Below are positions 11,087 through 20,337 of a DNA stretch of 36,484 nt, one piece after another (positions within the stretch are counted from its first letter, which is position 1; each line of letters begins with the position of its first letter). The notes below the pieces were generated by a model. That model saw only the letters and a program-made list of their open reading frames with translations, ran no database searches and was not told the DNA's origin. A program made the translations under genes and the position numbers. Source of the DNA: Acidobacteriota bacterium (lineage in GTDB: Bacteria > Acidobacteriota > Terriglobia > Acidiferrales > UBA7541); contig QHYJ01000209.1 in the NCBI GenBank assembly GCA_003223255.1, positions 1 to 36,484 of the forward strand. Reading direction: 5' to 3'.

Positions 11087-12667
11087 ATGGAGCTGTTGAA
11101 GATCGGGTGCGTGGCAGTTGCGTTGGCGCTGGGAACAGGCGGTGCTGCAGCACAAGTCGCGACGTCGCAGTACGACAATCTGCGCACGGGCGCAACCCTG
11201 AGCGAGAAGACCTTAACGTTGCAAAACGTGGACACGCAACATTTCGGGAAGCTCGGCGCATTCCAGGTGGATGGAGCGGTCTACGCGCAACCGCTGTTCC
11301 TTCCCGGGGTGGAAATTCCGGGCAAAGGCAAGCACGACGTGCTCTTTGTGGCGACAGAGCATGACAGCGTGTACGCGTTCGATGCCGAACGGCCAAACGA
11401 TCCGCCGCTCTGGCGGGTGAGTTTGCTGGATAAGATGCGCGGCGAAGAAACCGTTCCCGCGCGTGACGTGCAATGTCCGTTCATCCAGCCCGAAGTCGGC
11501 ATCACTTCCACGCCTGTAATTGACCTGCAATCGGGCACGCTGTACGTGCTGGCGCGCACCATGATCGGCCATCTCTTCAAGGACAACGAATATTTTCAAT
11601 CCTTGCATGCGTTGGCAATCACCACGGGCGCGGAGAAATTGGGCGGGCCCAAGCTCATTACGGCTTCCGTGCCAGGCCGCGGCGCGGGGACCGCCAACGG
11701 GCAGGTACCGTTCGATCCGCTGAAAGAAAATCCGCGCGCGGCGCTGCTGCTTGCGAACAACGTTGTGTATCTCACGTGGGGTTCGTCGTGCGACGTGGAT
11801 CCCTACCACGGCTGGGTGATGGCCTACGATCCACAATCGCTGGCGCAGAAAGCGGCGCTGAACGTCACGCCAGACGGCAGCGAAGGCGGGATCTGGGCAA
11901 GCGACACAGGCCTGGGCGCCGACGCGAGCGGCAATGTCTACCTGGCAACGGGGAATGGGACTTTCAATGCCGCGTCGGGAGGCCGCGATTACGGCGACTC
12001 GCTGCTGAAGCTCGCGTTGGAAAACTCCTCTCTTGTGGTGCGGGATTACTTCACGCCCTTCAATCAAGCGCAACTGAGCGATGCGGACGCCGATTTGGGC
12101 TCCAGCGGGCCGCTGCTGCTGCCTGATCAACCTGGGCCGCACCGCCACCTGCTTCTGCAGCCGACCAAGGGCGGGATGATTTATGGGATTGACCGCGACC
12201 AAATGGGACAATTTCAGGCGCAAGGCGACGCGGTCATCCAGCGAATTCACATGCCTGGCGGCGGATACGGCGCAATGGCCTATTGGAATGGCCACGTCTT
12301 CTTTGCGTGCAGTGACGATTCCCTGCGCGATTACGCCGTCGAGAATGGACGGCTCACACTGAAAACACACTCGAGCATCAAATTCGAGAACCCCGGCGCC
12401 ACGCCCTCAATTTCGGCGGACGGAAACAAGAACGCCATCGTGTGGGCCATTGCCACCAAAACCTGGAATGGTGCAAACCGGCCGGCGGTGCTCTATGCGT
12501 TCGATGCAAATAATGTCGAGCAGCCCATCTATACTTCGGAGCAGAATAGCCAGCGAGACCGAGCAGCAATGGCCACACGGTTTGTGATCCCTCTCGTCGT
12601 GAATGGGCGCGTGTATTTCGGCGCGCGAGGCGAAGTGGAAGTGTACGGACTTCTGAAACAGAGGTGA
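11087..12667 (+). CDS. Secreted PQQ-type beta-propeller repeat protein
   Basis: This is a protein of 527 residues from ATG 11087 (GGGGAGG five bases upstream; MELLKIGCVAVALALGTGGAAAQ signal peptide). The open frame runs up to 10880, but that extension is arginine/proline-rich and lacks a start signal. Blades of the quinoprotein/WD-like propeller show as VLFVATEHDSVYAFDAE, GTLYVLARTM, NVVYLTWGSSCD...GWVMAYDPQSL, GNVYLATGNGTFN and AVLYAFDANN. The metal and PQQ ligand set of true quinoprotein dehydrogenases is not evident, so a non-enzymatic or cofactor-free propeller is equally likely. The next gene begins 7 bases after its stop, so the two are probably co-transcribed and act together in the periplasm. 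Confidence 0.82.
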   Translation: MELLKIGCVAVALALGTGGAAAQVATSQYDNLRTGATLSEKTLTLQNVDTQHFGKLGAFQVDGAVYAQPLFLPGVEIPGKGKHDVLFVATEHDSVYAFDAERPNDPPLWRVSLLDKMRGEETVPARDVQCPFIQPEVGITSTPVIDLQSGTLYVLARTMIGHLFKDNEYFQSLHALAITTGAEKLGGPKLITASVPGRGAGTANGQVPFDPLKENPRAALLLANNVVYLTWGSSCDVDPYHGWVMAYDPQSLAQKAALNVTPDGSEGGIWASDTGLGADASGNVYLATGNGTFNAASGGRDYGDSLLKLALENSSLVVRDYFTPFNQAQLSDADADLGSSGPLLLPDQPGPHRHLLLQPTKGGMIYGIDRDQMGQFQAQGDAVIQRIHMPGGGYGAMAYWNGHVFFACSDDSLRDYAVENGRLTLKTHSSIKFENPGATPSISADGNKNAIVWAIATKTWNGANRPAVLYAFDANNVEQPIYTSEQNSQRDRAAMATRFVIPLVVNGRVYFGARGEVEVYGLLKQR

Positions 12668-12674
12668 GAGCCGC

Positions 12675-13613
12675 ATGAAGACTTTTCGAAAAGGCAGAGA
12701 GCTGGGTGCCGTGGCGCTAGTTTCCTTCCTGCTTGCTTGCGCATTCGCCTGCGCAAGCCGGGCGCAGGAGACTCTCAGAGGCGAAAGCGGGGATGTGAAA
12801 GTCACCGAGGTCACGCCCAACGTGTTGGTATTTGCCACCAGGACGGGCAACGTGGTGGCTTCCGCTGGACCAGACGGCGCGTTGTTGATCGGGACGCCCT
12901 CGGCAGACAGCACCGAGCGTATCAGCAGCGAACTGGCGAAGCGCACCCCATCGCCGGTCCGCTACGTCGTGATTGCGCCGGAGGACCCTGCGCAGTCGGA
13001 AGGCGATGCGGGATGGCGCCAGCGCGGCGCGTTCGTGGTCATGCAGGAAAAGGCCCTGGAACGCCTCGGAGGACACGTCATGGGAGCCCCGAAACCGCTG
13101 TCCGAGCAGTTCGTTAAGCTGGGAGTCGACCGCGCGCGAATTTCCTTCTCGGAAGTGATGAGCTTCGACCTGAACGGAGAGGCGGTCCACATGGTGAAGC
13201 AAAAGCCCGGTTACAGCGACGCGGACGCGCTGGTGCATTTTCACGTGGCCAAGTTGCTGTATTGGGGCGAAGTCTTTCCCGGAGACGGCTATCCAGCAAT
13301 TGATACCGCACACGGCGGCAACCTGGACGGGCTTGTGAAAATGTTGGATGGCTGGACCAATGCCGGATTCCATGTGGTGCCGGCGCGCGGCGAAGTGACC
13401 AACGGCACGGGCTTGAAGGCCTTCTGCGACATGGTTGTGGCGGTTCGCGACCGCGTGAAACATTTGATCGAGGCCGGGCGAACGGAAAGCGACGTGATTG
13501 GCGAACACCCCACCGCCGACTTCGACGCGAAATGGGGACACGGGCGGGTGCCGCCGGACACGTTTGTACAGGAAATTTACAGGGAGCTGAAGGCAGACAA
13601 AGGAAGCTGGTGA
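12675..13613 (+). CDS. Secreted metallo-beta-lactamase-fold protein lacking metal ligands
   Basis: The protein has 312 residues and a signal peptide ending near ASRAQ (about residue 31). Fold order matches the secreted MBL family: VTEVTPNVLVFATRTGNVVASAGPDGALLIGT (first sheet), RYVVIAPEDPAQSEGDAGW (position of THWHGDHTGGN), GYSDADALVHFHVAKLLYWGEVF, GGNLDGLVKMLDGW and VVPARGEVT (position of PGHGPV). The C-terminus also fits (VAVRDRVKHLIEAGRTESDVIGEHPTADFDAKWG...PDTFVQEIYREL). Every expected zinc ligand is replaced: the HxHxDH positions are P102, D104, A106 and Q107, then Tyr180, Glu199 and Arg238. It is therefore probably a binding or scaffold protein, not a hydrolase. It is encoded directly after the beta-propeller gene. 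Confidence 0.8.
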   Translation: MKTFRKGRELGAVALVSFLLACAFACASRAQETLRGESGDVKVTEVTPNVLVFATRTGNVVASAGPDGALLIGTPSADSTERISSELAKRTPSPVRYVVIAPEDPAQSEGDAGWRQRGAFVVMQEKALERLGGHVMGAPKPLSEQFVKLGVDRARISFSEVMSFDLNGEAVHMVKQKPGYSDADALVHFHVAKLLYWGEVFPGDGYPAIDTAHGGNLDGLVKMLDGWTNAGFHVVPARGEVTNGTGLKAFCDMVVAVRDRVKHLIEAGRTESDVIGEHPTADFDAKWGHGRVPPDTFVQEIYRELKADKGSW

Positions 13614-13992
13614 ACGCGGATATTCGAAGTGTGGGGCAAGTGCAGTACCAGCAAGGCCGCCAACTCACGCGTCTTGCGGCCAAAAAGACTGAAGGCGCAA
13701 CGGCCTTGCGACCGCTGCGCCCTCTTTCAATTGTGCCGCAAAGTTTTTTACGCTTCCCGGCTCAACCTGTGCGAGAGATTAGCCCTGTCGCTTTTTCTTG
13801 GCAAGAGGAATCTGAAAATTCAACTGTGGAAAGCTGTGCACGCCTTGTGCAAAATTCCCAACCCGAAAGATGGGAATTGGAAAATCGAAACGGATGGGAC
13901 GTTTCCGAAGGCGGCCCGGCTGTGCGACTTGGCATTTTTTCAAGAAGCCTACACAGAGGACACAGAGGTAAGATACAGGTACGAGGCGAGTA
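13614..13992. other. Intergenic region with ACACAGAGG-type motif
   Basis: No supported gene lies in this stretch. Near 13950-13972 it contains a doubled CACAGAGG motif (ACACAGAGGACACAGAGG). A similar CCCAGAGAACGCAGAGG string occurs near 15099-15116. The open frames here have no recognisable protein content. Confidence 0.4.
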
Positions 13993-14292
13993 ATGTTGCC
14001 CTATATCGAACGGGTTGTCAAAAAATACAAAAAGACGCTGAATGTTTCCAAGCTCTATACCACGGCGGAGGCCGCCCGGTTGGCGGGCATCTCGCGGCAA
14101 ACGCTGCAGGTGTGGATTGTATCGGGAAAAATCAAGCCGCCGGAGGTACAGCGTCCGTCGCGGCTGCGCTTGTGGACCAGCCAAGACGTTGCCCAGCTCA
14201 AGCAAGTGAAGCGCAAGCGATTCCGCCGCAAGCCAGGAAGAAAGCCCAAGGAGGAAGAGGGCGCGGGCGGGGCAGTCAACGCCAGTACTTGA
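13993..14292 (+). CDS. Small MerR/excisionase-like helix-turn-helix protein
   Basis: This is a 99-residue protein from ATG 13993 with GAGG upstream (about six bases). Residues 20-75 read LYTTAEAARLAGISRQTLQVWIVSGKIKPPEVQRPSRLRLWTSQDVAQL. This is the winged-helix pattern of MerR and excisionase DNA-binding domains (TxxEAAxxxGISxxTLxxWxxxGxIxPP...LWxxxDVxxL). A very basic tail (KRKRFRRKPGRKPKEEE) follows, with an AT-hook-like RKPGRKP. There is no effector domain. It stands alone between the propeller/MBL pair and the dehydrogenase cluster on the other strand. It could regulate either side or be a remnant of a mobile element. The target is unknown. Confidence 0.75.
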   Translation: MLPYIERVVKKYKKTLNVSKLYTTAEAARLAGISRQTLQVWIVSGKIKPPEVQRPSRLRLWTSQDVAQLKQVKRKRFRRKPGRKPKEEEGAGGAVNAST

Positions 14293-14465
14293 CGCGCGGC
14301 CAGATGGTTTGCAGGTTCCACTTCAAGCCGCGGCAAAGCAGGATTGGTCGCGTTTCGTAGGAATATGCGTAAGGAATGTTCAGAGTTGCGGCCACTTCGA
14401 CCGAGGCAAACACACTCCCCCGTGGGAATTCACACGCAGCCATCGCCGCGCAGTGGATCACAAGA

Positions 14466-15062
14466 TCATTCCGGAAGCGGCGGGCACCCGGCAAATTCGC
14501 GCTGGGAGCTGTTGCCGATGTAGCCGAGGTCGGCGATGCCGATTTTGCTGGTGTAGTAGCCGTCGCAAGTCATGTTGCGAAGAAACGCGAAGAAAGAAAC
14601 GCCCTGGCTGAGCGAGGGATCCTGCCTCGCGTTTTTGCCGAAGGCAATGAGGTCGAGAATTTCCTTTTTCTGTTCTGGAGTACACTCTAGAAAAACCTTG
14701 CCGCAATGATCCGTGGAGTAATTGTCGAGCCAAAAAATTCCGCCGCCAAGCCTCAATTGATACTTTTCGTTTTCGCTGGTGAGGAGATCGATGAATTCGG
14801 GAGCGCCGGCCTCGACCGCGCCGCCGCACTTTTCGTCCTTGGGAATGATCATGTCGCACAGTGCGACGAGCGTGGCGTATTGCGCGGCGGAAAAATATTT
14901 TGGAGTGTATTTCCCTGCAGGAGAGGCTGCTTTTTCTTTGCGCACCATTTGGTGGATGTATTCGGCGGCTTCTGCAGGAATGACCTGGAGTACGGAGCCA
15001 GCGGCGGCGCCCACAGCGAGCGTGCGGAGAATGTCGCGACGAGAGATGGATTCGTTAGGCAT
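14466..15062 (-). CDS. Tat-exported small subunit of GMC dehydrogenase (gluconate 2-dehydrogenase subunit 3 family), copy B
   Basis: This protein has 198 residues from ATG 15062; a GTG at 15071 is possible but has no better ribosome-binding site. SISRRDILRTLAVGAAAGSVLQVIPAEA is a twin-arginine signal. The mature part matches Gluconate_2-dh3: YFSAAQYATLVALCDMIIPKDEKCGGAVEAGAPEFIDLLTSEN, then a helical middle and the C-terminal NMTCDGYYTSKIGIADLGYIGN. In characterised FAD-dependent sugar dehydrogenases this subunit carries the Tat signal and drags the folded flavoprotein across the membrane. Its partner is most likely the GMC gene ending at 15206, which lies 143 bases upstream in the same direction. 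It shows little close similarity to copy A beyond the family motifs, so it is not a recent duplicate. Confidence 0.85.
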   Translation of the reverse strand: MPNESISRRDILRTLAVGAAAGSVLQVIPAEAAEYIHQMVRKEKAASPAGKYTPKYFSAAQYATLVALCDMIIPKDEKCGGAVEAGAPEFIDLLTSENEKYQLRLGGGIFWLDNYSTDHCGKVFLECTPEQKKEILDLIAFGKNARQDPSLSQGVSFFAFLRNMTCDGYYTSKIGIADLGYIGNSSQREFAGCPPLPE

Positions 15063-15127
15063 GGGATTCACCGGAAAGAAAAAGATTTAACACCGCGGCC
15101 CCAGAGAACGCAGAGGAAGAAAGGCAA

Positions 15128-15165
15128 AAGAAGATCCCGCGATTCGCTCGGGATGACAAGACAGC
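15128..15165 (-). repeat. Interspersed repeat unit, short version
   Basis: On the minus strand the unit reads TTGTCATCCCGAGCGAATCG then CGGGATCTTC. It has the same terminal words (GTCATYCCGAGC ... GGATCT) as the unit at 8028-8113, but almost no interior. It sits between the GMC gene and its small subunit, so the operon must read through it. Confidence 0.5.
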
Positions 15166-15205
15166 CCGACGGACAGAAGGGAGAAGCGCTGGCGAGAAAC
15201 GCATG

Positions 15206-16909
15206 TTAGAGGTTGCCCTTTCTGGCTTCGTCGAGGAGGTATTCCGAGGCGCGCCACCCCAGCGCCATGATGGTGAGGGTGGGATTTTTGTCGGGATTGG
15301 TGACCAGCGGAGCGCCATCGGTGACGAAAAGATTTTTCACCTCGTGCGCCTGGCAAAAACCGTTGAGCACGGAAGTCTTGGGATCGGCGCCCATGCGGGC
15401 GGTGCCGACTTCGTGGATGATTTTTCCGCCGGGCTCGATGCCAAAGGGGAGATTGCCATGGATGGAAGTTTTGGTCTTGTATTCGCCGCCCGCAGTTTCC
15501 ACAATGGCTTTGAACGTTTCCTGCATATCCTTGGCCTGAAGCAATTCATAGTCGGACCACTTGAAGTGGAAGCGAAGGACGGGAATGCCCCACTCGTCCA
15601 CCACCTCGGGATCAATTTCGCAATAGGTATCGGGATTGGGAATCATTTCTCCACGACCGGCGAAGCCGATGTGGCAACCGTAAATTTTGCGAGCGCGCTG
15701 TTTTAGAGAAACTCCGTAGCCTTCTTCTTCCCGATTCATGGCGTTGAACATGCCGACGCCGGGCATTTCGCGGCCGCCGCCGAATTCGATGTGATAGCCG
15801 CGGGGAAAATCATTTTTGCGGTCGAATTTCCACCAGGGCATGTACATATGCATGCCGCCGACGCCGTCATGATTGTGCGGAGGCATTTTCTCGAGTTGCG
15901 GGAAATAACCGTAGCCGCCGCTGCCGACTGAGTCGGTCAAATATTTGCCCACCGCGCCGGAAGAGTTGGCAAGGCCGGTGGGAAACTGCGTGGACTTGGA
16001 ATTAAGCAGTAACCGGGCGGATTCGCAGGCGCTGGCGGCCACCACGATGGCGCGAGCGTTGATGCGTTTTTCGGAGCGCGTAGCTTTATCGATGTAAGAG
16101 ACGGCGGTGGCTTGGCCATCTTTGTCGACGAGGATTTCGCGAGCCATGGCGCCGGTGATGAGAGTGAGCTTCCCAGTTTTTAGCGCCGGCGGAATGAGAA
16201 CCTGGCTGGAGCTGAAGTTGGAAGCCGTGACGCAGCCGCGGCCACACTGACCGCAGTAGTGGCAAGGGAGGCGGCTATTCACGGATTTTGTGAGGATGGC
16301 GAGACGCGATGGAATGCAAATAATGCCGAGCTTGTCGCAGGCTTTCTTGACGATCAATTCGGTGCAGCGAGGCTTCGGTGGAGGAAGGAAGACGCCGTCG
16401 GGCGCGCTGGGCACGTTTTCTTTGGTGCCGAAAACGCCGATGTAGGATTCCACTTTGTCGTAGTAGGGCGCAAGATCCTCGTACGTGATGGGCCAATCGT
16501 CTCCGAGACCGTCGCGCGTTTTGGACTTGAAATCAATGGGAGCGAAACGCAGGGCGATGCGGCCCCAATGATTGGTGCGGCCGCCAACAATGCGCGAGCG
16601 AAACCATTGGAAATCCGAGCCGGGAGCCGAAGTGTAAGGCTCGCCTTCAATGTGCCAGGCGCCGTTGGGCGCGAGGAATTCGCTGAAGTTTTCGCGGGCG
16701 TGGCCACCGACACCCGCGCCGCGATGAGGCAAATCGTACGGCCACATGAACATTTTGAAGTCTTTTTCGGGGTGAACTTCCGGCCCGGCTTCGAGCATGA
16801 CGCAATTGAGGCCGCCTTCGGTGAGGACCTTCGCGGCCATGCCTCCGCCTGCGCCGGAGCCGATGATGCAGACGTCGTATTGTTTGGGAGAACGGATTAC
16901 CTGGGACAT
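15206..16909 (-). CDS. GMC-family FAD-dependent sugar dehydrogenase, large subunit, copy B
   Basis: This flavoprotein of 567 residues has the FAD-binding Rossmann motif GSGAGGG at 17-23 (YDVCIIGSGAGGGMAAKVL), followed by the ribose-contacting Glu of VMLEAG. SRIVGGRTNHWGRIALRF is the FAD-covering GMC segment. The catalytic pair is His499 (HEVGTARMG) and Asn542 (NPDKNPTLT). Residues 216-226 (CHYCGQCGRGC) hold four Cys in CxxCxxCxxxC spacing. This recalls the iron-sulfur cluster segment of the bacterial FAD glucose dehydrogenase large subunit. It has no signal peptide and probably hitch-hikes on the Tat signal of the next gene's product. The length is normal for sugar and glycoside dehydrogenases of this type. 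No cytochrome c subunit is encoded in the window. Confidence 0.9.
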   Translation of the reverse strand: MSQVIRSPKQYDVCIIGSGAGGGMAAKVLTEGGLNCVMLEAGPEVHPEKDFKMFMWPYDLPHRGAGVGGHARENFSEFLAPNGAWHIEGEPYTSAPGSDFQWFRSRIVGGRTNHWGRIALRFAPIDFKSKTRDGLGDDWPITYEDLAPYYDKVESYIGVFGTKENVPSAPDGVFLPPPKPRCTELIVKKACDKLGIICIPSRLAILTKSVNSRLPCHYCGQCGRGCVTASNFSSSQVLIPPALKTGKLTLITGAMAREILVDKDGQATAVSYIDKATRSEKRINARAIVVAASACESARLLLNSKSTQFPTGLANSSGAVGKYLTDSVGSGGYGYFPQLEKMPPHNHDGVGGMHMYMPWWKFDRKNDFPRGYHIEFGGGREMPGVGMFNAMNREEEGYGVSLKQRARKIYGCHIGFAGRGEMIPNPDTYCEIDPEVVDEWGIPVLRFHFKWSDYELLQAKDMQETFKAIVETAGGEYKTKTSIHGNLPFGIEPGGKIIHEVGTARMGADPKTSVLNGFCQAHEVKNLFVTDGAPLVTNPDKNPTLTIMALGWRASEYLLDEARKGNL

Positions 16910-17019
16910 TTTTGAGTTCTCAGTCTTAGATTTTAAGTTCTCAGTCGGAAAAAGAATCTTTGATTGCTCAACGCGCTTTTTTCAGAGCCATTTTAGACCT
17001 GAATTCTGAAGATGAAGAG

Positions 17020-17075
17020 AGATTTCTCCCTGCGGGGCGGCAAAAGGCCGCCGTCCCTCCGGTCGAAAATGACAG
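17020..17075 (-). repeat. Interspersed repeat unit of the TCATTTTCGACCGGAGGGACG...GAGAAATCTC type
   Basis: On the minus strand the unit begins TGTCATTTTCGACCGGAGGG and ends GCAGGGAGAAATCTCTC. Its centre is a GC-rich hairpin (GGCGGC/GCCGCC, 17036-17052, 5-base loop). It occupies the 193-base gap between the two GMC genes. It may act as an intra-operon attenuator. Confidence 0.55.
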
Positions 17076-17102
17076 ATTGGGCCGTGGTCATCATGGTTGT
17101 GG

Positions 17103-18794
17103 CTAGAGATTGTTTTTCTTCATTTCGGAGACGGCGAAATCACAAGCGCGCGCGGTGAGCGCCATGTACGTCAGCGACGGATTCACGCAGGAGGAAGAAG
17201 TCATGCAGCCGCCATCGGTGATGAAAAGATTCTTCACGTCGTGCGCCTGGTTGTGGGCATTGAGAACAGAAGTTTTGGGATCGCGGCCCATGCGCCCGGT
17301 ACCCATTTCGTGAATGCCGAGGCCCGGCGAACTGATTTCCTGATAGGTCTGGATGTCCTTGGCACCGGCGGCGGCGAGCATTTCTCCCGCCTGGATGGAG
17401 ATGTCTTTGGACATTGCATGCTCGTTGGGGCCCCAGGCGCAGTGAATCTTGAGGGTGGGGATGCCCCAGGCGTCGAGTTTCTCCTTATCAACCTCCACAT
17501 AGTTGTCGTGATTTGGCAGGCATTCGCCGAATCCACCCACACCAAAGCGCCAGGGGCCGGGCTTGCGGAGCGCGTTCTTGAAATCTGCGCCAATGCCGGT
17601 CATCCACATGCCGCGCGACCAGCCTTCGCGGTGTCCGCCACCCTGATAGCCATAGCCGCGAATGAAATCGTTTTGCTTGGTTTTCACGTTGCGGAACCGC
17701 GGGATGTAGATGCCATTCGGGCGGTTACCAAAAGGCATTTTGTCTTCGTGGCCCGGCATCATGCCGTTGGCGCCGGCGCCCATGTGGTGGTCCATGAGAT
17801 TGTGACCGAGCTCGCCGCTGGAGTTGGCCAGGCCATTGGGAAACTCCGGGGTGGCGGAATTGAGAAGGATGCGCGTGGATTCTAGAGTAGAAGCACAAAG
17901 AAAGACGATGCGGCCTTTGCATTCGAGTGGATTCTTCGTTTGCGCGTCGATGACACGCACGCCGGAAACTTTGCGCGTCTTCGAATCGAAGAGGAGGCTG
18001 TGAACAACGCTATAGGGACGGATAGTGAGGCGGCCGGTTTTCTGCGCGGCAGGCAGCGTGGAATTCAGGCTGCTGAAATAAGACTGCGTGATGCAGCCGC
18101 GATGGCAGACGCCGCAATAGTGACAGGCGGCGCGGCCCTTGTGGACTTGCGTAAGCACGGCGGAGCGGCCGATGGTCATGATGCGATCGTCGAAATGCTT
18201 GGCAAGGGCATCCCTGAAATCCTGTTCGACGCAAGTCATTTCCATGGGCGGAAGGAATTTGCCGTCCGGGAGCTGCGGCAAACCTTCGGGCTGACCGCTG
18301 ATGCCGGCGAATTCTTCGACGTAGTCGTACCAGGGGGCGATGTCGGCATAGCGAATGGGCCAATCGACGGCAATTCCGTCTTTCAGGTTGGCTTCGAAAT
18401 CGAGATCGCTCCAGCGATAGCTTTGCCGACCCCAGGTGATGGACTTGCCGCCGACCTGGCGCCCACGAATCCAGGAAAAATGTTTCCCGGGATCACAGGA
18501 ATAGGGGTTTTCGACGTCGCTAACGAAGAACTTGTGAGAGTACTCGTCGCAAGCGTAATAGCATTCGCGCTGAACGGGCTGCGTGCGTTCGCGTTCGAAG
18601 CGATTGTCCCAGTAGCGGTACTTGAGCTCCCAAACCGGAACGTGTTCGACATAGTCCTGTTCAGGAACGATAGTGCGGCCGGCCTCGAGCACCAATGTAT
18701 TGAGGCCTTTTTCGGTGAGTTCTTTCGCAGCCCACCCGCCGGTGATTCCCGAGCCGATAATGACCGCGTCGTAGGTCTTGGAATTCGGGGCCAT
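17103..18794 (-). CDS. GMC-family FAD-dependent sugar dehydrogenase, large subunit, copy A
   Basis: The 563-residue flavoprotein begins at ATG 18794, preceded by AGGTGA and only 9 bases after the small-subunit stop. The in-frame GTG at 18803 is less likely. FAD motif GSGITGG starts at residue 14. The GMC segment is RGRQVGGKSITWGRQSYRW. The four-Cys segment CHYCGVCHRGC covers 224-234. Catalytic His495 (HEMGTGRMG) pairs with Asn538 (SCVNPSLTYMAL). It lacks a signal peptide, consistent with Tat hitch-hiking on its small subunit. It aligns with copy B in all motifs but is clearly diverged, which implies a second substrate. Electrons would pass to an acceptor encoded elsewhere. Confidence 0.9.
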   Translation of the reverse strand: MAPNSKTYDAVIIGSGITGGWAAKELTEKGLNTLVLEAGRTIVPEQDYVEHVPVWELKYRYWDNRFERERTQPVQRECYYACDEYSHKFFVSDVENPYSCDPGKHFSWIRGRQVGGKSITWGRQSYRWSDLDFEANLKDGIAVDWPIRYADIAPWYDYVEEFAGISGQPEGLPQLPDGKFLPPMEMTCVEQDFRDALAKHFDDRIMTIGRSAVLTQVHKGRAACHYCGVCHRGCITQSYFSSLNSTLPAAQKTGRLTIRPYSVVHSLLFDSKTRKVSGVRVIDAQTKNPLECKGRIVFLCASTLESTRILLNSATPEFPNGLANSSGELGHNLMDHHMGAGANGMMPGHEDKMPFGNRPNGIYIPRFRNVKTKQNDFIRGYGYQGGGHREGWSRGMWMTGIGADFKNALRKPGPWRFGVGGFGECLPNHDNYVEVDKEKLDAWGIPTLKIHCAWGPNEHAMSKDISIQAGEMLAAAGAKDIQTYQEISSPGLGIHEMGTGRMGRDPKTSVLNAHNQAHDVKNLFITDGGCMTSSSCVNPSLTYMALTARACDFAVSEMKKNNL

Positions 18795-18803
18795 GAGAAT
18801 CAC

Positions 18804-19400
18804 CTAAGCCTTTCTCTCTGCGGGAACCACCGTGCAACCGTGAAATGCGCCGGGAATGATTTCGAGATTCAATTCCTTGGTGAATGCAACCTCGGAGGTG
18901 TAGTAGCCATGGAGCGTTATATTCTTGAAGACGGTAAAGAAATCTTCCTTAAGCTGGGTGTCCGGCTGGGGAACCGTGTTGTTAGCGTGGCGTCTCCTCT
19001 CCGATCGTGAGGCCGCAGCGGCGTCGTCCATAGAACGTAACAGGGTGACTTGTTGCACCGACGAAGCGGCAGCGAAATCCTTTCCGAAAAGTTCATTGCC
19101 TTGCTTATCGACGTCCGCGAGGCCGTCGAGGAAATGACGGCGCTCGTCCTCCGTAGCCCACTCAGTGAGAATGACGTCGATGAATTCGTTGACGCGAGCC
19201 GCTTTCGCGCCGGGCGTATCCGTGGCGGGGATAATTTGGTCGATCATGGCGACGACGGTGTCGTTCTGGTGAGGATTCAGGGTGCGCAGCGAGTAAGAGG
19301 CGTCAGGATGGGCTTGGCGGTAAAAGCCAAACAGCTCCGGAGTCAACGCGGGAATAACGGCTCCGGCGGTAAGCATGCGAAGGGCATCACGTCGATTCAT
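18804..19400 (-). CDS. Small subunit of GMC dehydrogenase (gluconate 2-dehydrogenase subunit 3 family), copy A
   Basis: This protein has 198 residues from ATG 19400, with GGGAGG four bases upstream. The longer open frame to 19460 merely overlaps the upstream gene. MNRRDALRMLTAGAVIPALTPELFGF is a short twin-arginine-like signal. The family core reads TLNPHQNDTVVAMIDQIIPATDTPGAKAARVNEFIDVILTEW, and the C-terminal signature is FKNITLHGYYTSEVAF. The gene overlaps the end of the upstream isomerase gene by 14 bases and ends 9 bases before the GMC start. Translation of all three is therefore likely coupled. It provides export and probably electron transfer or stability for GMC copy A. Confidence 0.87.
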   Translation of the reverse strand: MNRRDALRMLTAGAVIPALTPELFGFYRQAHPDASYSLRTLNPHQNDTVVAMIDQIIPATDTPGAKAARVNEFIDVILTEWATEDERRHFLDGLADVDKQGNELFGKDFAAASSVQQVTLLRSMDDAAAASRSERRRHANNTVPQPDTQLKEDFFTVFKNITLHGYYTSEVAFTKELNLEIIPGAFHGCTVVPAERKA

Positions 19401-20337
19401 AGTTCCTCCCCGATTCGAATGAGCGAGCCATGCGGGCGGAGCGCGCGCTGGAAATGGCAAGCTCGCGAGCGTCGCGCAATTCCTTCACCGGATCGCCAAG
19501 GGGATGAAATTCCATGGCGACGTAGCGGGAGTAACGCAGCTCGGCGAGCTTGCGATAGATATTGGCGTAGTTGATTTCGCCGGTTCCGGGGTGGTGGCGG
19601 CCGGGAACGTCGGCGACGTGGATGAGGCCGACAAGATCGATGTTTTTCTCGAGTTTTTCGATGAGATTGCCTTCGGCGATCTGCTCGTGGAAGAGATCGT
19701 AGAGAAACTTGACGTGCGGATTGCCGGCGGAACGGACAATGTCAAAACCTTCTGCGGAGCTGGTCAGAAAATATTTGGGATTTTCTTCCGGGTCGATGTT
19801 TTCAATGAGCAGCTCGATCTTGTTTTCGGCGGCGATATCGGCACCGCGCTTAAGCGTTTCGATGCAGTTGGCGTGCATTTGCTCCGGAGAGAGGCCGGGA
19901 ATCTTGTCGCCGGTCTGCATGATGAGGCGCGTGCAGTCCAGTTCGCGCATGGTGGGAATGAAATCGCGAAGGGCCTTGAGAAAAGCTTCACGCTTGGCAG
20001 CGTCCGCAAGAGGAAGCCACACGCCGCAGGTGCCATCGAACTCCATGCCCAGCTCATGCTTTTTGCGGCGCGCTTCGGCAAAGTCCGGCGGCTTCCAATC
20101 CTTGAATTCCCCGACCAGCTCGACGGCGTGATAGCCGGCTTCGGCAACCTTTTCGAGACGCTGCGGAAACGGGAGATCGCGGTAGACGGTCCAGAGCATC
20201 ACGGTGAAGGAGAAAGGAACGCCTTCGTTCTCTGTGGCCGCGTTCCGTGGCAATGTGGCGGCAGTTGCGGGAGCACGACCGGCGGCAGCCGTCACAGCGG
20301 CACCGGCACAAACGCCCATGAATTCGCGTCGATGCAT
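19387..20337 (-). CDS. Tat-exported hydroxypyruvate-isomerase-like TIM-barrel protein
   Basis: The 316-residue protein starts at ATG 20337 with GGGAGG eight bases upstream. MHRREFMGVCAGAAVTAAAG is a twin-arginine signal. The barrel matches the Hyi branch of the AP-endonuclease-2 superfamily: FTVMLWTVYRDLPFPQRLEKVAEAGYHAVELVGEF, ELLIENIDPEENPKYFLTS (strand Glu), VKFLYDLFHEQIAEGN (Asp/His), LVGLIHVADVPGRHHPGTGEINY and YVAMEFHPLGD (second Glu). These residues make up the divalent-metal site of the family. Cytoplasmic Hyi converts hydroxypyruvate to tartronate semialdehyde. An exported version next to sugar dehydrogenases more likely acts on a keto-sugar. It is the second gene of the cluster, overlapping the next by 14 bases. 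Confidence 0.87.
   Translation of the reverse strand: MHRREFMGVCAGAAVTAAAGRAPATAATLPRNAATENEGVPFSFTVMLWTVYRDLPFPQRLEKVAEAGYHAVELVGEFKDWKPPDFAEARRKKHELGMEFDGTCGVWLPLADAAKREAFLKALRDFIPTMRELDCTRLIMQTGDKIPGLSPEQMHANCIETLKRGADIAAENKIELLIENIDPEENPKYFLTSSAEGFDIVRSAGNPHVKFLYDLFHEQIAEGNLIEKLEKNIDLVGLIHVADVPGRHHPGTGEINYANIYRKLAELRYSRYVAMEFHPLGDPVKELRDARELAISSARSARMARSFESGRNYEST

Follow-up and report, generated by a model that had tools for sequence, protein, structure and literature searches.

A clade of probably exported metallo-beta-lactamase-fold proteins with replaced zinc ligands in Acidobacteriota

Introduction

The metallo-beta-lactamase (MBL) superfamily is very large, and its members are usually annotated as metallo-hydrolases from the fold alone. 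In MBL proteins, loss of the zinc ligands implies loss of the metal. A zinc-less clade kept by selection would be a clean natural case in which an extracytoplasmic enzyme became a non-enzyme, and its many intact relatives allow comparison; the recognition of such a pseudoenzyme clade would correct the automatic annotation of these genes. A described case is INTS9, an MBL/beta-CASP pseudoenzyme in which NYHC replaces HxHxDH and which has been compared with CPSF100 (PMC7980224). Among the open-licence papers searched, the INTS9 paper (PMC7980224) is the only one that joins pseudoenzyme and MBL fold, and none reports a clade of exported MBL pseudoenzymes in bacteria.

The gene described here lies in a 36,484-nucleotide stretch of DNA (the window) from the 6.66 Mb draft genome, 97% complete, of an Acidobacteriota bacterium (G000). 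An initial annotation of the window had read its product as a secreted MBL-fold pseudoenzyme in which every zinc ligand is replaced.

An MBL-fold protein without its zinc ligands

The gene, its predicted export signal and the former ligand positions are as follows.

12675..13613, + strand: gene for the secreted MBL-fold pseudoenzyme, ATG start, 312 aa (from the ORF and alignment)
12675..12764, + strand: probable Sec signal peptide, residues 1-30, cleaved between SRA and QE (from sequence and alignment, without a predictor)
12969..13001, + strand: region of the former motif 2 (HxHxDH), residues 99-109, VIAPEDPAQSE (from alignment)
13212..13214, + strand: Y180, in place of the motif-3 His; in the clade Y in 11 members, F in two and N in one (from alignment)
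13269..13271, + strand: E199, in place of the bridging Asp; identical in 14/14 members (from alignment)
13386..13388, + strand: R238, in place of the last His; identical in 14/14 members (from alignment)

The 312-aa ORF has no internal stop, in agreement with the earlier description of the frame as undamaged, and each of the 14 loci at which the gene was found has an open frame. The N-terminus is of the export type, and the cleavage regions of orthologues align as NAQE, IGAQE and SSAQE.

The protein was aligned with ligand-bearing relatives from G000 itself and from other genomes. In class B numbering, H116, H118, D120 and H121 correspond to P102, D104, A106 and Q107 of the window protein, and H196, D221 and H263 correspond to Y180, E199 and R238. 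HxHxDH accordingly reads PxDxAQ, and none of the later His, Asp and His ligands is retained; the residues given in the initial annotation (PEDPAQ, Tyr180, Glu199, Arg238) were right in every case. All seven ligand positions are unchanged in 34/34 sampled ligand-bearing relatives. All 34 of these relatives also have the motif-1 Asp, which is replaced by G73 in 14/14 clade members. The C-terminal PTADFDAKWG, which had been noted as intact, is indeed a motif of the wider family, and relatives show the close versions PTADLDAQWG and PTAAWDAKWG.

Profile-profile comparison of the clade with six intact relatives gives an hhalign probability of 100% and an E value of 2.4e-47 over 297 columns, end to end, so the MBL assignment does not rest on motifs alone: the window protein has whole-domain homology to zinc-dependent MBL-fold hydrolases. 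Its best named family is NCBIfam TIGR04559 (SoxH_rel_PQQ_2), at 31.9 bits, far under the curated cut-off of 280 bits. Among the proteins scanned, three clade members score 24-35 bits against this model and four intact relatives score 87-99, and by this measure the window protein would not belong to quinoprotein relay zinc metallohydrolase 2 (TIGR04559). No Pfam domain was found in the window protein, and a PAC4 match at 0.06 was dismissed as chance. The best PDB sequence match (E 0.096) is a distant MBL-fold similarity. AlphaFold2 with five sequences gave a model too poor for use (pLDDT 48.7, pTM 0.38). G000 also encodes two ligand-bearing relatives, on contigs C401 and C84, which are 23-26% identical to the window protein. 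The clade combines MBL homology, lost ligands and a conserved frame, as do MBL pseudoenzymes of the INTS9/CPSF100 type.

Distribution and phylogeny

The gene is present at 14 loci in 13 Acidobacteriota genomes, the window included, and the orthologues are 49-76% identical to the window protein. Members occur in eight of the 36 genomes of the window's genus (G000, G018, G019, G025, G032, G011 with two copies, G017 and G029). Further members are in G591, G582 and G734 and in the records behind L034 and L036; G591 and G582 are apparently the contigs of L037 and L035. The titled member records are labeled Acidobacteria bacterium, Bryobacteraceae, Candidatus Sulfotelmatobacter and Candidatus Acidiferrales. 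The two G011 copies have diverged (78% identical) and lie on contigs C135 (L042) and C334 (L044).

An even draw of 396 genomes of the phylum yielded a member in G000 only, and the clade is therefore patchy. The contig scan for orthologues relied on exact matches to short peptides from the window protein, a criterion that distant members would escape. No relatives of the clade turned up in viral contigs, and a single distant, intact MBL protein there aligns poorly; phages and plasmids gave remote relatives only, with 26-30% identity among the matches listed.

In the tree a single branch separates the 14 members from the other sequences. Its support is 100/100, each of the 200 bootstrap trees contains it, and as the stem of the clade it has a length of 1.89 changes per site. 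This topology fits a single origin, with a fast phase that would have preceded the spread of the clade.

Conservation of the replacement residues

P102, E199 and R238 are identical in 14/14 aligned members. Position 104 is D in 12 members, S in one and P in one, and position 106 is A in nine and otherwise in five. Position 107 is H in ten members and Q (the window protein), L, E and R in one each. The statement that every zinc ligand is replaced holds for the window protein and does not extend to the ten of 14 orthologues that still have the fourth His of motif 2. The window protein is thus the extreme case, with complete ligand loss, and most orthologues are one His short of it. The losses shared across the members indicate that loss of the zinc site preceded the spread of the clade; the one old His that most members retain is gone from the window protein too.

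Because members differ by up to 51% in pairwise comparison, the invariance of positions 102, 199 and 238 is not just a matter of recent ancestry, though about 28% of all positions in the clade alignment are invariant. Within five positions of the old ligands conservation in the clade is somewhat higher, 0.83 against 0.76 elsewhere (p 0.03); the difference is not significant at three or eight positions, and the test is a weak one whose outcome varies with the span chosen.

The five closest members have dN/dS ratios of 0.10-0.15 by the NG86 method. Among L009, L010, L011 and the second G011 copy the NG86 values are 0.12-0.15, except for the closest pair, L009/L010, which has few changes and gives 0.27 (0.38 by YN00). 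For comparison, dN/dS is 0.06-0.18 in the ligand-bearing L003 group, 0.07-0.11 in the neighboring beta-propeller gene and 0.05-0.06 in a GMC oxidoreductase. All these ratios, from NG86 and partly YN00, are approximate, with dS near 1 and close to saturation in most pairs. The clade is under purifying selection, and relaxed selection is not indicated. Ligand-retaining orthologues together with relaxed selection on the window gene, named beforehand as the contrary outcome, were looked for and not found. The earlier view that the loss is kept by selection is borne out by the shared losses, the open frames at 14 loci, the dN/dS of 0.10-0.15 and the three invariant replacement residues; that the protein is a pseudoenzyme is well supported by shared losses at 14 loci and by dN/dS values like those of intact relatives.

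Repeat R and possible gene relocation

The MBL gene of the window has the following neighbors.

11087..12667, + strand: exported PQQ-type beta-propeller protein, 526 aa, 7 bp upstream of the MBL gene; probably not part of the system
13680..13856, + strand: copy of a dispersed repeat of ~178 bp (repeat R), ~65 bp past the stop of the MBL gene
13994..14293: small MerR/HTH_17-type protein, 99 aa, downstream of repeat R
14466..19460, - strand: two GMC oxidoreductase genes and two gluconate-2-dehydrogenase subunit 3-like genes, in an order strongly conserved in relatives

In G018, DNA related to the MerR/HTH_17-type gene region follows the MBL gene, and the gap between the propeller and MBL genes contains a short ORF (L038 8112-8436, MKLAEWARQPGLDYKTAYRWFPAG...) with no Pfam match, which we take to resemble a relic of an IS607-type serine resolvase.

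Repeat R has sharp ends. It is present in 12 of the 36 genomes of the genus, with up to five copies per genome: five in G000 and three to five in several relatives. Paired copies in the same direction surround a single gene in several places. Further copies are located as follows.

L040 7946-8122 and 9071-9237: copies of repeat R
L041 8278-8452 and 9461-9632: copies of repeat R
L106 5573-5718 and 7124-7284: copies of repeat R

In G025 and G032, R copies of the same orientation lie on both sides of the MBL gene. A second locus includes a gene of the D-serine dehydratase type (DTA; Pfam D-ser_dehydrat) and has the order DTA-R-g212-g145 in G000, G018, G019 and G025 and the order DTA-R-MBL-R-g212-g145 in G032. 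At the GMC locus of G032, R is present and the MBL gene is absent, although the contig ends 430 bp upstream. The simplest reading of these arrangements is that a unit of gene plus R was transferred from one R site to another, with homologous recombination as the probable route; no recombinase was found for this movement. Repeat R has no Rfam match, and only two of its pairs show compensatory change, which is weak covariation support for an RNA structure.

Possible function and alternatives

The protein would be exported with its dinuclear zinc site permanently lost and motifs 1-5 all altered. Because the ligands are lost, the metal would by established MBL chemistry be lost with them, and metal-dependent hydrolysis of the kind done by the relatives would not be expected. 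The reading toward which we lean, with reserve, is an exported zinc-less MBL pseudoenzyme under purifying selection that acts as a binding protein through a rebuilt cleft. The conservation pattern points to ligand binding as what selection would maintain, with the old active-site cleft rebuilt around the invariant P102, E199 and R238. E199 and R238, whose spatial closeness is presumed, may form a carboxylate/guanidinium pair in place of the metals, and the cleft would most likely hold a small ligand or the end of a polymer outside the cytoplasm. The protein appears to act alone, with no fixed neighbor gene and no strict need of an active paralogue. The wider picture, in which an exported pseudoenzyme clade with a metal-free pocket (P/E/R for H/D/H) binds outside the cytoplasm and moves as gene plus repeat via the 178-bp element, is put forward only tentatively.

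The conserved polar residues H172, D184, H188, H190 and D204 count against the binding-protein reading, as they leave room for other chemistry. The protein could still be an enzyme, with a metal-free mechanism or with a new metal site drawn from D104, H107, E199, D204, H188 and H190; the clade has many invariant polar residues, and with D104 in 12/14 and H107 in 10/14 members a partial site of D104, H107 and E199 may persist in most. However, four members, the window protein among them, have Q, L, E or R instead of H107, and two have S or P instead of D104. With both variable there is no clade-wide metal site at the old position, and a surviving enzyme seems unlikely. The protein could also pair, itself inactive, with an active secreted MBL paralogue, in the way that INTS9 pairs with INTS11. 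Such pairing is a known mode for MBL pseudoenzymes (PMC7980224), and most member genomes also encode a ligand-bearing relative of the family. Yet no full-length close active paralogue was found in the drafts of G011 (98% complete) and G582 (93%), and pseudoenzyme and active genes are adjacent at none of the loci seen. G011, with its two pseudoenzyme copies, weakens the paralogue model, though draft genomes can miss genes, and we consider such a partnership distinctly improbable.

The upstream beta-propeller protein had been proposed in the initial annotation as the binding partner. In the window the two genes are on the same strand, 7 bases apart, and both products are of the exported type; the genes adjoin at four of the 14 loci (G000, G018, G019, G025). 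These four cases are, however, one syntenic locus, bordered on the other side by a gluconate-2-dehydrogenase subunit 3 gene and GMC genes, and the gap grows from 7 bp in the window to about 55 in G019, 320 in G018 and 340 bp in G025, where a repeat R intervenes. The other ten loci have no such propeller and no neighbor common to all, only genome pairs sharing a locus, and in G016 a propeller orthologue occurs without an MBL gene beside it. The search for orthologues with the same propeller neighbor thus returned a single syntenic locus, local inheritance best accounts for the adjacency, and the proposed partnership, now very improbable, is not upheld. A decaying gene or an artefact might be suspected from the loss of all catalytic residues and the long branch. 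It is contradicted by the frames, which are intact at 14 loci spread over several families, by the dN/dS of 0.10-0.15 and by the invariant replacement residues, and has next to no likelihood.

Comparison with known systems

The secreted MBL-fold hydrolases of Acidobacteria and other bacteria that resemble TIGR04559 share with the clade full-length homology, an export signal and the C-terminal PTxxxDxxWG. Among named families both match TIGR04559 best, and all fall far below its cut-off. The clade differs from them in lacking the zinc ligands and the motif-1 Asp. With the class B metallo-beta-lactamases the clade shares the MBL fold and distant sequence similarity, but its zinc ligands are gone and beta-lactam hydrolysis is not to be expected. 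INTS9 and CPSF100 resemble the clade in having an MBL fold with a destroyed HxHxDH that is kept by selection (for INTS9, PMC7980224). They are eukaryotic subunits that serve in RNA processing inside the cell, contain a beta-CASP domain and have an active partner, whereas the members of the window clade are bacterial and exported and have neither a beta-CASP domain nor a fixed partner gene.
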